Assembly: GCA_017447865.1 (NCBI GenBank)
Contig: JAFSMO010000055.1
Coordinates: 62,001-126,000 of the forward strand
DNA from: Thermoguttaceae bacterium
GTDB taxonomy: Bacteria > Planctomycetota > Planctomycetia > Pirellulales > Thermoguttaceae
Direction: 5' to 3'
Length of the DNA: 64,000 bases
The position numbers and the translations under genes are program-made. This document shows, one piece after another, positions 1,478-48,598 of the stretch; positions within the stretch are counted from its first letter, which is position 1; each line of letters begins with the position of its first letter. The notes below the pieces were generated by a model. It was not told where the DNA came from. It did not search any database and saw only the letters and a program-made list of their open reading frames with translations.

Positions 1478-3313
1478 TTAATCAAAAAGCCAATCGTCAA
1501 CGTCACCCGTTTTCTCTTTGACTTCTTCCTCGCTCATCGTGTCAGCGTCGTTGAATTCATCACGCAGACCCTGGCGCTCGCAGCCCTCGACGTAGATCGC
1601 CTTGTACGGACGCGCGGGGCAGATCGACTCGCAGCCGCCGCAGCCGATGCAGATCGATTCGTCCACGTGCGGGATGGTCAGGCCCTTTTCCGGGTCGCCG
1701 TACGGGATCATCGAGACCGCCTTGGTCGGGCAGTGCTCGTCGCAGGCGCCGCAGAACGTTCCGTCCACGGCCACCACGCAGTTTTCCTCGACGAAACGCA
1801 CGCGGCCCATCTGAACGCGGTTTTTGAAGTAGCGCATTTGCTCCGCCGGCGTTTTTTCCGGTTCCATCTTCCGTTCGGGTTTGCCCGGAACGTCCGATTC
1901 TTTCGGAGTTTCCTTGGGAGTCGACCGCTTTTCAGGATCCTCGTACAGAACCAGGAGATCGCCGCTTGGGGTTTCCATTTCGGCTATATCCATCCTGTGG
2001 GCTATGCCCAGAATATTGATCGCGCCGTTCGGGCAGACCTCCGAGCAGACGGTGCAGTCGTAATTGCAGAACGTGTTCGTGAAGTCCATGACCGGCGCGA
2101 ACATTCCCTTCACGCCGTACTCGAGGAAGGCCGGCTTGAGCACGTGCTGCGGGCATTTCGCGACGCAGAGATGGCACGCGGTACAGTGGTGAAGCAAGTG
2201 ACCGATGCTTCCCGCTCCCGGAGGGGCCACGGGGGTCTGGCGCGTCCAGGCGTGCTGGCCCGATTTGTACACTTTGTCGGGTTGAGGCTTCACCATGACC
2301 GTGTTGGCGACCACCGCCGCGGTTCCCGCCACGACCGGCACACTCGCCGCCATCGACGCCGTCGTGATGAGGAAATCACGCCGGGCCTGGGCTTTTTCGG
2401 CGTCCGATTTATGCGTAATTCCGCCTTCGGCTCCATTACCGCCTTTCATGGCAGGCAGAAAGCCGCCGATCGAGTAGGTCAGCGCGTCAAACTTGCACGA
2501 GCCGAGGCAGTTGAAGCAGTCCACGCAGCGGGAAGCGTCCACGGCTTTCCCCTTGGTGTTCATGCAGGACGATTTGCACTTTTGCGCGCACATCCCGCAG
2601 CTCTTGCACCTGGACGCGTCGATGCGGATGCGGAAGAGGGAAAAGCGGCTCAAAAGACCCAAAATCGTGCCGACCGGGCAGATCGTGTTGCACCACGTGC
2701 GGCCGGAACGCCACGCGAGGATCCCGATCACGGCGAGCGAACCGAGCGCGAGGCAGAAACTCCCGACCGAAAGCATCGCGTGGGAGTACGCAATGCGCGA
2801 GAAGTTGAGGCTCCCCTCCGTAACGAGGCACGAATTATTGATCAAAATGTAAACCGGGCGGAACACGCCGTTCGCGATGCGCCCGAAAATCGAGTACGGC
2901 TCTATCACGTAGAAAAGAAAGCCCAGCCCCACGTAACCGGCCCCAAACGCGACCAGGACGCCGGCCCAGCGCAGAAGCGGGAGCGGTTTCTTGTACCGGT
3001 ACTTTTTCCCGCCCGGCATTCGTTTGGAAAGCCACGAGATGAAGTCCTGCAGAATCCCAAGCGGGCAGATGACCGAGCAGTACAGACGCCCGAAAAGGAA
3101 CGTCACGGCCAGAATCGCCAGCACGACCCAGTGCGCGTGGTGCAGAAGCGCCGGGAAGAACTGGATCTTCTCGAGCCAGCTCCCCTGACCGACGGTCAAC
3201 CCGTCCGGGTTTTGTGCCGTTCCGAGAAACGCCTGCGTCCAATCGAAGAAAAAAAGCGTGATCGCCGCAAGCATGGCGACGGCGAAAATGATTCGGAGGG
3301 TTTTAAGTATCAT
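1478..3313 (-). CDS. NapH/NapG-like membrane polyferredoxin (4Fe-4S) with internal Tat-like motif
   Basis: A 611-residue protein starting at ATG 3313 (AAAGGA upstream). The N-terminal ~230 residues hold several membrane helices and the NapH/MauN-type segments CSVICPLG and CNTICPVG. A cytoplasmic ferredoxin module follows ([22 protein letters not shown]). Near residue 308 comes [15 protein letters not shown], which resembles a Tat signal, and then a NapG-like part with four more Cys clusters ([42 protein letters not shown]). The layout therefore looks like NapH joined to NapG in one chain, probably moving electrons from quinol to an unidentified acceptor. No nap genes adjoin it. Residues ~288-301 are encoded by a palindromic repeat (see the repeat at 2411). 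The gap to the next minus-strand gene is 31 nt. Confidence 0.85.
2411..2451. repeat. Palindromic repeat copy inside a coding sequence
   Basis: The + strand reads GCGTAATTCCG, then CCTTCGG, then CTCCATTACCGCC, nearly matching the units of the intergenic array at 11038-11289. It adds about 14 residues ([13 protein letters not shown] and neighbours) between the ferredoxin module and the Tat-like motif of the polyferredoxin, and keeps the frame open. Confidence 0.75.
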
Positions 3314-9724: not shown

Positions 9725-11032
9725 ATGCTAGATCGTCGTAATTTCCTCAAAACGGCCGCCTCGTTTACTGCGGCGGGACTGGTTTCCCGCGCGTTCGGTG
9801 AGGAGGCGGAGGCTCCGAAACCCGCTTTCAAAGCCGGGAAGGCCAGGCACGTCATTCAGATCTGGATGTGGGGCGGGCCGAGCAGTCTGGAAACGTTCGA
9901 CCCGAAACCGGGCGCGGGGCCGGCGTACTGCGGATCGTTGGACCACCCGCTCCAAACGAACGTGCCGGGGATCGAAATCAGCCAGACTTTGCCGAATCTC
10001 GCCCAGTGCGCGGACCTTTACGCCTGCATCCGTACCATGACTCACGAGACGAACCACCACGAGATCGCGGCGTACCGGATGCAGACCGGCCGCATGCCCG
10101 GCGGTGGGCTCGTTTACCCGAATTTGGGCGCGGGCATCTCGAAGATCTGTGGCGTGGACGCCGGCTACGACTCGCCCATTCCGCCGTACGTCGTGCTGAC
10201 GACCGGCCAGGGGCGTTTCTCGGAATCCGGTTTCCTCGGCCCGAAGTACAAGCCGTTCATTACGGGCGGCGACCCGTCCAAAACGCCGTTCCTCGTTTCC
10301 GGCTACGTGCTGCCGGGAGTGGACGGGGAACATCAGGCGCGCCGTCAGGAAAACCTCGCCAAACTGGACGCCTGGGGGAATCAGTTCCCCGAAAACGGTC
10401 TGGTCGATGACCTGGAGGCGGCCCGGAAGAACGCGTACCAGCTCATCACGGGCACGGCCGCCGAAACGTTCAACCTGGGAAACGAGACGGAGGAAATGCG
10501 CAACGCGTACGGGATGAACTGGTTCGGCCAATCGTGCCTCATGGCGCGGCGGCTCGTCGAAAAGGGCGTTCCGTACATCACGATCAACTACAAAGGCTGG
10601 GACACGCACAAGCGGCACTTTGAGGTCCTGAACCGCCGTCAGTCCGAATGGGATCAGGGGCTTGCGACGCTTCTGAAGGACCTGCGCGACCGCGGGCTGC
10701 TCGACGAAACGATCATCTGGTGGGGCGGCGAGTTCGGCCGCACGCCGAAGATCCAGACCGAGTCGCCGTGGTTCGGCGGACGCGGCCATTTCTGCCACTG
10801 CTTCAGCGTGATGCTCGCCGGCGGCGGGTTCAAAGGCGGAACGGTGGTCGGAAAGTCGAACGAGACGGGCGAGAAAGTCGCCGAGCGGCCGGTTTATCCG
10901 CAGGACCTCCTGGGCTCGATCTACTGGCAGATGGGGATCGACCCGACCGGCAAAATGCCGAACGATAAAGGCTTCGACATTCCGATCCAGGACCCGCCGA
11001 GCGAGGCCGGCTGGCTCAGGGAATTGGTTTAA
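9725..11032 (+). CDS. DUF1501 domain protein with Tat signal
   Basis: A 435-residue protein. ATG 9725 fits the AAGGAG box at 9713-9717; GTG 9719 lies too close to it. The N-terminus DRRNFLKTAASF is a twin-arginine signal, so the folded protein should be exported. The DUF1501 hallmarks VIQIWMWGGPSSLETFDPKP and WWGGEFGRTPKIQ are present; the family belongs to the sulfatase/alkaline-phosphatase-like superfamily. It is paired with the preceding DUF1549/DUF1553 gene and probably co-transcribed. Its substrate is unknown. The palindromic repeat array begins right after the stop codon. Confidence 0.92.
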   Translation: MLDRRNFLKTAASFTAAGLVSRAFGEEAEAPKPAFKAGKARHVIQIWMWGGPSSLETFDPKPGAGPAYCGSLDHPLQTNVPGIEISQTLPNLAQCADLYACIRTMTHETNHHEIAAYRMQTGRMPGGGLVYPNLGAGISKICGVDAGYDSPIPPYVVLTTGQGRFSESGFLGPKYKPFITGGDPSKTPFLVSGYVLPGVDGEHQARRQENLAKLDAWGNQFPENGLVDDLEAARKNAYQLITGTAAETFNLGNETEEMRNAYGMNWFGQSCLMARRLVEKGVPYITINYKGWDTHKRHFEVLNRRQSEWDQGLATLLKDLRDRGLLDETIIWWGGEFGRTPKIQTESPWFGGRGHFCHCFSVMLAGGGFKGGTVVGKSNETGEKVAERPVYPQDLLGSIYWQMGIDPTGKMPNDKGFDIPIQDPPSEAGWLRELV

Positions 11033-11037
11033 CGGAA

Positions 11038-11289
11038 GGCGGTAATGGAGCGCACAGCGCGGAATTACGCGCCGGGTGAAATCACTACGGATGAATGGGA
11101 GGCGGTAATGGAGGCCGGAGGCCGGAATTACGCGCCGGGCGAAACCACCACGAACGCAGTGACGCGTAATTCCGCGCTCCGCGCTCCATTACCGCCTCCC
11201 ATCTACGAGTAATTCCGCGCTCCGCGCTCAATTACCGCCTCCCATCTACGCGTAATTCCGGCCTTCGGCCTCCATTACCGCCTCCCATC
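11038..11289. repeat. Array of ~40-bp palindromic (REP-like) repeats, five units
   Basis: This fills the 320-base gap after the DUF1501 gene. Two units point one way (11038-11071, 11099-11133) and three the other (about 11163-11202, 11208-11245, 11250-11289). The shared core is CGTAATTCCG, a variable GC-rich palindrome (either GCGCTCCGCGCT or GCCTTCGGCC), then CCATTACCGCCTCCCAT. Each unit can fold (GTAAT with ATTAC, GGCC with GGCC). The spacing is irregular and the cores vary, so it is not a CRISPR array. A sixth copy lies inside the gene at 1478-3313. Confidence 0.85.
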
Positions 11290-25912: not shown

Positions 25913-26515
25913 ATGAATAAACGCGCGTTTTATATTACGGTCGTTATTCTCGCGCAGCTTGCGCTCCTTTTCGGATTGATCGCGTGGTACAGCATGCCGT
26001 TTTGGGTGGAAGACGCGGTCGAAGTGACGGTCCGCACGGAGCCGGTCGATCCGAGGGATCCGTTCCGCGGGGATTACGTGATCCTGAACTACCCGTTCAG
26101 CCGGCTGACCGGAGACCTGCAAGACGCCGCCCGGGAAAAGCATGAAAAAATGAAGGGCCGGTACGTGTACACGATCCTGAAACCGGCTCCGGGCACGCAT
26201 TTCTGGGAGATGGAAAAGCAGACGTACGACTTCCCCGGCAAAAATCAGAAAGACGCCGATTCCGTCGTGATCCGCGGAATGACCACGGAGCCTTACTACT
26301 CGACGCCCATCCGTTACGGGATCGAGCAGTTTTTCCTTCAGGAAGGGACTGGCCGCGCGATCGAAGAAGCGATGCTGAACGCCCGGGGCCAGCAGACCGT
26401 CGAGGTCACGCTCCGCGTCCTCCCCTCGGGCCGCGCCGCGGTCAAAAGCGTAAAAGTCGTTCCGCCAGACCGCGAGGTGAAAATCGAATTCATGCCGACG
26501 GAACTATACAATTAG
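25913..26515 (+). CDS. GDYXXLXY domain membrane-anchored protein
   Basis: A 200-residue protein preceded by AAGGAGCG. One N-terminal membrane helix (residues 6-25), then the name-giving motif GDYVILNY (residues 58-65) after VDPRDPFR, and an extracytoplasmic domain. It is the known companion of DUF2157 and is translated right after it (4-nt gap). No catalytic residue is evident. The stop codon TAG lies within the left arm of an inverted repeat. Confidence 0.88.
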   Translation: MNKRAFYITVVILAQLALLFGLIAWYSMPFWVEDAVEVTVRTEPVDPRDPFRGDYVILNYPFSRLTGDLQDAAREKHEKMKGRYVYTILKPAPGTHFWEMEKQTYDFPGKNQKDADSVVIRGMTTEPYYSTPIRYGIEQFFLQEGTGRAIEEAMLNARGQQTVEVTLRVLPSGRAAVKSVKVVPPDREVKIEFMPTELYN

Positions 26516-26633
26516 GAATTAGGAATGCGTAATGCGTAATTATCGCTTCGCGTAATGAAAGATTCAGAAAGCCTTCGACCGTTAAAAGCCGAAGGCTTTT
26601 TTAATTACGCATTACGCATTCCTAATTCCTAAT
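26511..26633. repeat. Inverted repeat with perfect 32-bp arms enclosing a terminator
   Basis: The left arm (26511-26542) is ATTAGGAATTAGGAATGCG continuing TAATGCGTAATTA; the right arm (26602-26633) is its exact reverse complement. Between them AAAGCCTTC (26568-26576) pairs with GAAGGCTTT, followed by TTTTTT, so a bidirectional terminator sits inside. It separates convergent genes and supplies the stop codon of the left one. Confidence 0.9.
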
Positions 26634-26635
26634 TG

Positions 26636-29681: not shown

Positions 29682-29807
29682 AGTGTGGAGTGTGGAGAGT
29701 GGAGTGTGGAGTTGGAAAAGCCTTCGGCTTTTTACCGGTTGCGCTCTTTCTAGAACTTACATTACGCGAAGCGTCAACTCCACACTCCACCCTCCAAACT
29801 CCACACT
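29682..29807. repeat. Inverted repeat of GTGTGGAGT units enclosing a terminator
   Basis: The left arm (29682-29714) repeats AGTGTGGAG/TGTGGAGAG; the right arm (29775-29807) is its reverse complement with two mismatches. Inside, AAAAGCC, TTC, GGCTTTTT (about 29716-29732) forms a terminator. The right arm ends in the stop codon of the dehydrogenase gene (TGA, 29807-29809 on the minus strand). Confidence 0.88.
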
Positions 29808-41532: not shown

Positions 41533-41597
41533 AAAAAAAGCCCCCAATACGGAGCTTCCTTTTTAATTATGAATTTTGAATTATGAATTATGAATGA

Positions 41598-41618
41598 GGG
41601 CCTGAAGTGATGCAGGCC
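41598..41618 (-). terminator. Hairpin after the repeat-tailed protein gene
   Basis: On the minus strand GGGCCTG, loop CATCACTT, CAGGCCC. Only a weak AT-rich tail follows. Confidence 0.45.
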
Positions 41619-41635
41619 CCCAAATTCGATTTAAA

Positions 41636-42688
41636 TCAGTTCTGCGGGGCGGCTTCAGAAGCCGGAGCAGGAGCGGCTTCAGCGGCCGGAGCAGGAGCGG
41701 CTTCAGCGGCCGGGGCCGGAGCAGCTTCAGCGGCCGGGGCCGGAGCGGCTTCAGCGGCCGGAGCCGGCTCAGTTTCAGGAGCAGCAGCCGGAGCAGCTTC
41801 AGCAGCCGGAGCCGGTTCCGTTTCAGGAGCAGCAGCCGGAGCAGCTTCAGCAGCCGGAGCCGGTTCCGTTTCAGGAGCAGCAGCCGGAGCTTCTTCAAGT
41901 GCCGGAGCTGGAGCTTCCTCAGCGGCCGGAGCCGGAGTTTCTTCAGCGGCAGGGGCCGGGGCTTCCTCAGCAGCAGGAGCGAGCGTTTCCGGATTCGGAG
42001 CGTCCAGATTCGTGTTTTCTTCCTGGCTGGCGGAAACTTCTTCCGGAGTGACTGCGGCCGGAGCCGGAACACTCAGCGCGGCGATGTTGGCTTCGTCGAG
42101 CTTGTAAACATCCAGGATCTGCTGGGCTTTGCGGCCGTAGGAGTCCTGCGTCCGCGCGATTTCCTGGTAAAGCTTTTTGGCGGCCTTGATGTTTTCTTCC
42201 TGGTTTTCGATCTGGGCCATCAGTTCAGCGTTCTTGGCGAGCGCAAATTTGGCCATCTGGTTCATTTTATCGTTGACGTTCGCGGAAACGAGAGCGTTGA
42301 ACTGATCCTTCGATTTCTCAAACGCTTCTTTTGCGGCGGCGGAATCATTCGCGGCGAGCTTCTGAACGCCTTCCAACTGGACGCGGGCCGCACTCTGGAA
42401 CGCAACCAGGGAGCCCGGCAACGTGTTCAGATTGGCTTTGGCAAAATCGTCAAGCGCTTCCTGAATCTCATCCGAGGTTTTCCCTTCGGCGGAAGCAATC
42501 GTGTAGTAATTTTCCCAGAGTTTCTTCTGGGCGTTGATCTTCGCCTTTTTTGCAGATGCCCAGGCGATGAAAGCCACCAGGCAAATAACGAGAGCGGTGA
42601 CCAGCGGTTTCCAGTAGGTCTTAATCCACGCACCGTTTGAAACGAGCCAACTTTCCAAATCGTTTTCGCGACGAACTTCTTCTTTCAT
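41636..42688 (-). CDS. Membrane-anchored YfgM/TPR-like protein with Ala/Pro/Glu repeat tail
   Basis: A 350-residue protein. A short cytoplasmic segment precedes one membrane helix (WKPLVTALVICLVAFIAWA, ~26-44), then a helical domain of about 165 residues similar to the YfgM/TPR family, thought to help periplasmic folding or stabilise translocon partners. The last ~130 residues are repeats built from APAAEEAP and AAPETEPAPAAEA. This low-complexity tail is encoded by 48-bp tandem units. The start has a good promoter (42743-42771) upstream. The homology of the tail says little. Confidence 0.75.
   Translation of the reverse strand: MKEEVRRENDLESWLVSNGAWIKTYWKPLVTALVICLVAFIAWASAKKAKINAQKKLWENYYTIASAEGKTSDEIQEALDDFAKANLNTLPGSLVAFQSAARVQLEGVQKLAANDSAAAKEAFEKSKDQFNALVSANVNDKMNQMAKFALAKNAELMAQIENQEENIKAAKKLYQEIARTQDSYGRKAQQILDVYKLDEANIAALSVPAPAAVTPEEVSASQEENTNLDAPNPETLAPAAEEAPAPAAEETPAPAAEEAPAPALEEAPAAAPETEPAPAAEAAPAAAPETEPAPAAEAAPAAAPETEPAPAAEAAPAPAAEAAPAPAAEAAPAPAAEAAPAPASEAAPQN
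41760..41905 (-). repeat. 48-bp tandem repeats coding for an Ala/Pro/Glu tail
   Basis: Two to three nearly identical 48-base units (each 16 residues, AAPETEPAPAAEAAPA) with shorter 24- to 30-base variants on both sides. Confidence 0.75.
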
Positions 42689-48263: not shown

Positions 48264-48598
48264 GTGGGAAAAGACGTTTTTTTAAAGTTTTTTAATATTT
48301 ACGAGAGAAAGCCGGAGGAGGTGCGCAGAGAGATCGAGAAAAAAAGGAAGATCTGAAGGCGGAGACGACGCGCGGAGCGCGTCGTCGTTCTGGAGTGCGG
48401 TGATACGGTCGCGCAAGCGACATTCACCGCTTTCACTTGCGGCAATAAAGCCTCAAAGAGGCATTTGCCGCTGAAGTGCGCTGGACGTTCACCACGTGAA
48501 AAACCATTTTTCACCACTAAAATTTTCGGTCGCTAAGTGAAAGCGGCAAATGAAGCCTTCGGCTTCTGTATTGCCGCACTCCAAATGACGCGTCGCCC
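48264..48598. other. Intergenic region with nested palindromes
   Basis: The stretch holds the repeat element at 48365-48600 and, before it, an A-rich run (48339-48345). No coding frame with a ribosome site was found; the frame at 48299-48517 is part of the repeat. Confidence 0.55.

Follow-up and report, generated by a model that had tools for sequence, protein, structure and literature searches.

The best-known palindromic repeats to lie in frame within open reading frames are the RPEs of Rickettsia. The initial annotation of the DNA analysed here regarded such repeats as seldom described elsewhere, a view at odds with the survey of Di Nocera et al. 2013 (PMC3733652), whose main text describes intragenic REPs in several species and in several phyla, single or grouped and often in DNA-repair genes. 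According to that text, Opitutus terrae (Verrucomicrobia) is the species with the most intragenic GTAG repeats, REPs are reported in the PVC superphylum, and the ends of some GTAG REPs supply the stop codons of genes. The GTAG and CGTC REPs described there share several traits with the 42-nt repeat reported here: they are palindromes of the 20-40 nt class, of high copy number and mainly extragenic, lying near the 3' ends of genes in tandem and convergent gaps, with some copies within ORFs. Unlike them, the 42-nt unit carries neither a GTAG nor a CGTC tag. Both tags were absent from the consensus (22 copies; solo and array copies), and GTAG was present only in some array spacers, so that the repeat does not appear, by its sequence, to belong to either superfamily.

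The window, a stretch of 64,000 nt from a Thermoguttaceae bacterium, contains an array of the repeat at 11031-11289 (two plus-strand and three minus-strand copies) and a copy in frame within a polyferredoxin gene at 2411..2450 (minus strand), with the sequence CATGAAAGGCGGTAATGGAGCCGAAGGCGGAATTACGCAT. Aligned copies define a REP-like palindrome with a unit of ~42 nt, GGCGGTAATGGAG-[stem-loop-stem]-CGGAATTACGC, or, written out, RATGRRAGGCGGTAATGGAG-N4-loop-N4'-CGGAATTACGC. Genes of the DUF1559, PSCyt2/PSD1 and DUF1501 types in the host point to the Planctomycetota. The unit has the potential to form an imperfect hairpin, in which a GGA/GGA internal loop separates the outer stem (GTAAT/ATTAC) from an inner stem of 4 bp. 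Compensating changes among copies preserve the pairing of the inner stem, which occurs as GGCC/GGCC, GCGC/GCGC or GTGC/GCAC.

The exact pattern GCGGTAATN{11,23}AATTACG, which fixes 15 bases, had 140 matches in the genome, the polyferredoxin copy among them, and the reversed-pattern control had none over a search span of 4.8 Mb; BLAST of the segment at 2411-2450 against the genome gave 70 matches. Together with a covariance model, R1, built from 22 copies including that in the polyferredoxin gene, these searches yielded a catalogue of 155 copies in 76 clusters. R1 was scored on 150 of 4712 candidates genome-wide, and completeness was checked by the pattern search and an 860-kb sample. A search with a short-stem pattern added one solo copy, intergenic and absent from the catalogue (C70:21328), which brings the genome total to a minimum of 156 copies and 77 clusters. 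In the unbiased 860-kb sample, all 21 R1 matches with E<=1 scored at least 54 bits and no degenerate copies were found; since a tail of decayed copies is missing there, the family looks young and homogeneous in sequence. The exact pattern had no match in 39 relatives, 7 congeners among them, and a similar exact pattern had none in GTDB-species contigs, a collection from which the host's own genome may be left out. The repeat is thus a short imperfect palindrome of high copy number and limited to one species, as are REPs in the broad sense.

The same holds for its placement. Using gene calls from a simple codon-usage caller, under which ~75% of the sample was called coding, 51 clusters lay in tandem, 14 in convergent and 5 in divergent contexts, against 254, 66 and 75 background gaps, respectively; few clusters, therefore, lie between divergent genes. 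The automatic tally placed two clusters inside genes and, by its cluster rule, assigned a third (C25:7985) to the divergent class; in this cluster the first copy is gene-interior and the other copies lie past the gene end. Hence 3 of the 76 catalogued clusters have interior coding copies and 73 do not, and depletion of the repeat within genes is plain from these counts; a binomial estimate, which takes clusters as independent and insertion as uniform, gives a rough guide to it. The repeat is mainly extragenic and favours tandem and convergent gaps, again in keeping with REPs in the broad sense. Several genes terminate within a copy and take their stop from its TAA or TGA (NGRR*, DGRR*, MEGGK*). 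At L104:2508-2540, one copy provides the stop codons for two convergent genes. About ten solo copies (L098, L111, L112, L118 and other loci) directly follow (TAATGAATAACGAA)-type satellites, and five have TTGAACTCATTCTG downstream in common, an arrangement that would fit nesting within a larger repeat.

The array in the window illustrates how copies are grouped. Copy 1 (11031..11072, plus strand; R1 62.4 bits) overlaps the upstream DUF1501 gene (Pfam DUF1501), whose stop codon ends in the first 2 nt of the copy. Copy 2 (11094..11135, plus strand; 68.9 bits) forms a REPIN-like pair with copy 3 (11162..11203, minus strand; 68.2 bits; inverted repeat I9), which is followed by copies 4 (11205..11246, minus strand; 60.4 bits) and 5 (11248..11289, minus strand; 68.6 bits) at a 43-nt period (direct family D9). 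Across the catalogue, most direct spacings are 43 or 61-63 nt; neighbours in inverted orientation form 26 convergent pairs, mainly 63-70 nt apart. The repeat thus occurs in direct and alternating (BIME-like) arrays, another property of REPs in the broad sense. With its regularly spaced inverted pairs and direct arrays it resembles REPINs and BIMEs, but differs from them in that 42 of the 76 clusters are single copies and in that no cognate RAYT was identified.

One RAYT in the genome scores above the curated cut-off (L042; NF047646), and it is flanked by a different repeat, GGAGTGCGRYRATACAG, of which the genome has 119 feet, largely in inverted pairs ~173 nt apart. The 3.3-kb locus of this RAYT contains no R1-type copy. 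The association that characterizes RAYT-associated REPs was accordingly not found for the 42-nt repeat, in an assembly that is 92% complete and from which a second RAYT could be missing. Kinship between the 42-nt repeat and the RAYT-flanking repeat looked plausible, as their feet share 12 of 17 positions, but it did not withstand a shuffle test, in which this similarity was reached by 148 of 2000 shuffles. An element of ~190 bp at window positions 48386-48582 is MITE-like, and its inverted ends, GGAGTGCGRYRATACAG, are the same as those of the RAYT flanks; six feet of the GGAGTGCGRYRATACAG type were also present in one congener (G002).

The polyferredoxin gene (1478..3313, minus strand; 611 aa) fuses a NapH-like membrane ferredoxin to a NapG-like ferredoxin half. 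NCBIfam matches to NapH (181-282) and NapG (305-434) all fall below the curated cut-offs, and Pfam Fer4 domains are present. The repeat is located at the hypervariable NapH/NapG junction, directly before a Tat-like RRDFL motif, and translation of the 611-aa ORF confirmed the initial annotation that it is read in frame in a linker ahead of this motif. The annotation had also likened the segment to the array at 11031-11289, and had named a match within chance range as grounds for doubt. Here, R1 matched the copy at 54 bits over all 42 positions (E-value 1.3e-8 in 860 kb). Gly-rich coding sequence with a chance or convergent likeness to the repeat would be tolerated in so variable a linker, but with the 15-fixed-base pattern without a control match in 4.8 Mb and the 54-bit score, we give this explanation practically no weight; for the polyferredoxin copy it is refuted by the genome-wide search.

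The polyferredoxin copy is atypical in that its inner stem has 3 bp instead of 4, which makes it 40 nt long, 2 nt under the consensus. The same shortening is seen in a noncoding copy at C89:18327, and for this reason the short-stem form may predate the insertion into the polyferredoxin gene and need not stem from frame repair. The repeat sequence was absent from the junction in the orthologues of 7 congeners (those compared include L012, L013 and L017), as the initial annotation had anticipated for close relatives. Its estimate that the insertion added about 14 residues was borne out in part: the element does encode residues in frame, but they number 13, and a clean gain is not supported, given that the junction is hypervariable and that the linkers of close orthologues are equal in length or longer. 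On this comparison the repeat may have taken the place of linker sequence instead of adding to its length. Downstream of the copy lies GCATAAAT, which is also the spacer of 43-nt arrays at C34:37303 and C61:20552.

A genome-wide search, a check proposed in the same annotation, revealed further gene-interior copies, and they keep the reading frame in both of the genes concerned. The first gene is recG (L094; C39:13748-16183, minus strand), whose product passes the curated cut-offs of two RecG models in NCBIfam. It contains three tandem copies with a period of 45 nt, or 15 codons: MGGGNGARSAELRSE, MGGGNGGRRPELRTE and MGGGNGARSAELRVE. No other pair in the catalogue has a direct spacing of 45 nt, and 7 of the 49 other direct spacings are divisible by 3; the chance of two in-phase spacings in recG is ~0.02 if they are independent. 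The 45-nt phase in recG, where arrays elsewhere have 43 or 61-63 nt, shows the direct action of frame selection on the repeat array. The RecG repeats were absent from RecG of 7 congeners, and the protein is 812 aa long compared with 738-791 aa in the congener frames, which fits a gain of sequence. The repeat region falls between two stretches aligned to the solved RecG structures 1gm5 and 9wm0. The main text of PMC3733652 makes no mention of RecG, and a codon-phased triple array of 45-nt period in recG does not appear to be described in that survey. Intragenic REPs are already known as a kind; what is new is the 42-nt family itself and, most notably, the codon-phased recG array.

The second gene (L078; C25:7742-8881, plus strand) encodes a coiled-coil membrane protein of unassigned family and carries a single copy, oppositely oriented (ARNSALRAPLPPF), which is absent from the orthologues of 7 congeners. 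All three host sites, in the polyferredoxin, RecG and L078, are length-variable linkers, and the boundaries of the insertions are inexact for that reason. Judged from these alignments, with boundaries blurred by the variable linkers, the three insertions lie in frame within ORFs whose homologues lack the insert, as RPEs do. The likeness to RPEs is one of form and placement: both are palindromic, in frame within ORFs and tolerated at variable sites, but the 42-nt repeat lies almost entirely outside genes, with 3 of 76 clusters within them.

Taken together, these observations are most probably explained by a mobile REP-like family specific to this lineage, with rare intragenic insertions persisting where the frame stays open and the linker is tolerant. 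Copies would spread probably as single-stranded hairpins moved by a HUH (Y1) transposase of the REP type, or alternatively by recombination out of existing arrays; we infer both the mobility and the mobilizing enzyme. A rare insertion into coding DNA would then survive if the change in length preserves the frame and the linker tolerates it. The GCGC-type unit has no stop in four of its six frames, and survival in coding DNA is therefore possible. The polyferredoxin, recG and coiled-coil membrane protein genes would be the three survivors. The first two share the frame in which the 5' half of the repeat is translated (ATG RRA GGC GGT AAT GGA, MxGGNG). In the simplest and most likely reading, the encoded peptide would serve as a neutral spacer. 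Such a family would offer a clean example, in a probable planctomycete, in which the entry of a mobile hairpin repeat into coding DNA can be counted, and the finding that one of its three host genes encodes a DNA-repair helicase is in line with the unexplained bias towards repair genes reported in 2013 (PMC3733652).

Alternatively, template switching or gene conversion in the course of repair could have carried array DNA into the coding sites, without transposition of single units, and the recG triplet would then have grown by local duplication. The GCATAAAT sequence after the polyferredoxin copy, identical to an array spacer, and the tandem arrangement in recG both suggest such an origin. Yet the 42 single clusters among 76 indicate that single units move or persist, and stem type and spacer vary among the three units in recG, which speaks against recent simple duplication. 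We regard this origin as possible but rather doubtful.

Each of the five coding copies has an intact inner stem. Retained stems would be expected if the copies were kept for an effect on translation, with ribosomes slowed by the mRNA hairpin where two domains meet, such as the NapH membrane half and the Tat-like half; the polyferredoxin copy does lie exactly between two independently folding halves. But young copies would have intact stems anyway, the polyferredoxin copy folds as single-stranded DNA no better than shuffles (z -0.15), congeners have no hairpin of the 42-nt family at this junction, and in the middle recG copy a synonymous change of GGT to GGC has already abolished outer-stem pairing. 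An effect of this kind is very unlikely. We likewise see only a slim chance that the coding copies have been domesticated, such that the recG triplet, with its codon phase and intact inner hairpins, would alter RecG or its translation and perhaps feed back on the mobility of the repeat; if true, this would help to account for the excess of REPs that has been reported in DNA-repair genes. Survival of rare insertions from a mobile family, with the peptide as a neutral spacer, is thus the reading we prefer for the coding copies.

The window contains repeats of other kinds as well. Further inverted satellite-like repeats, with arms of at most 34 nt, lie at 26509-26635 (AATTAGGAATGCGTAATGCG) and 29682-29807 (GTGTGGAGTGTGGAG), and a tandem array with a 24-nt period and at least 12 registers occupies 41597-42028.
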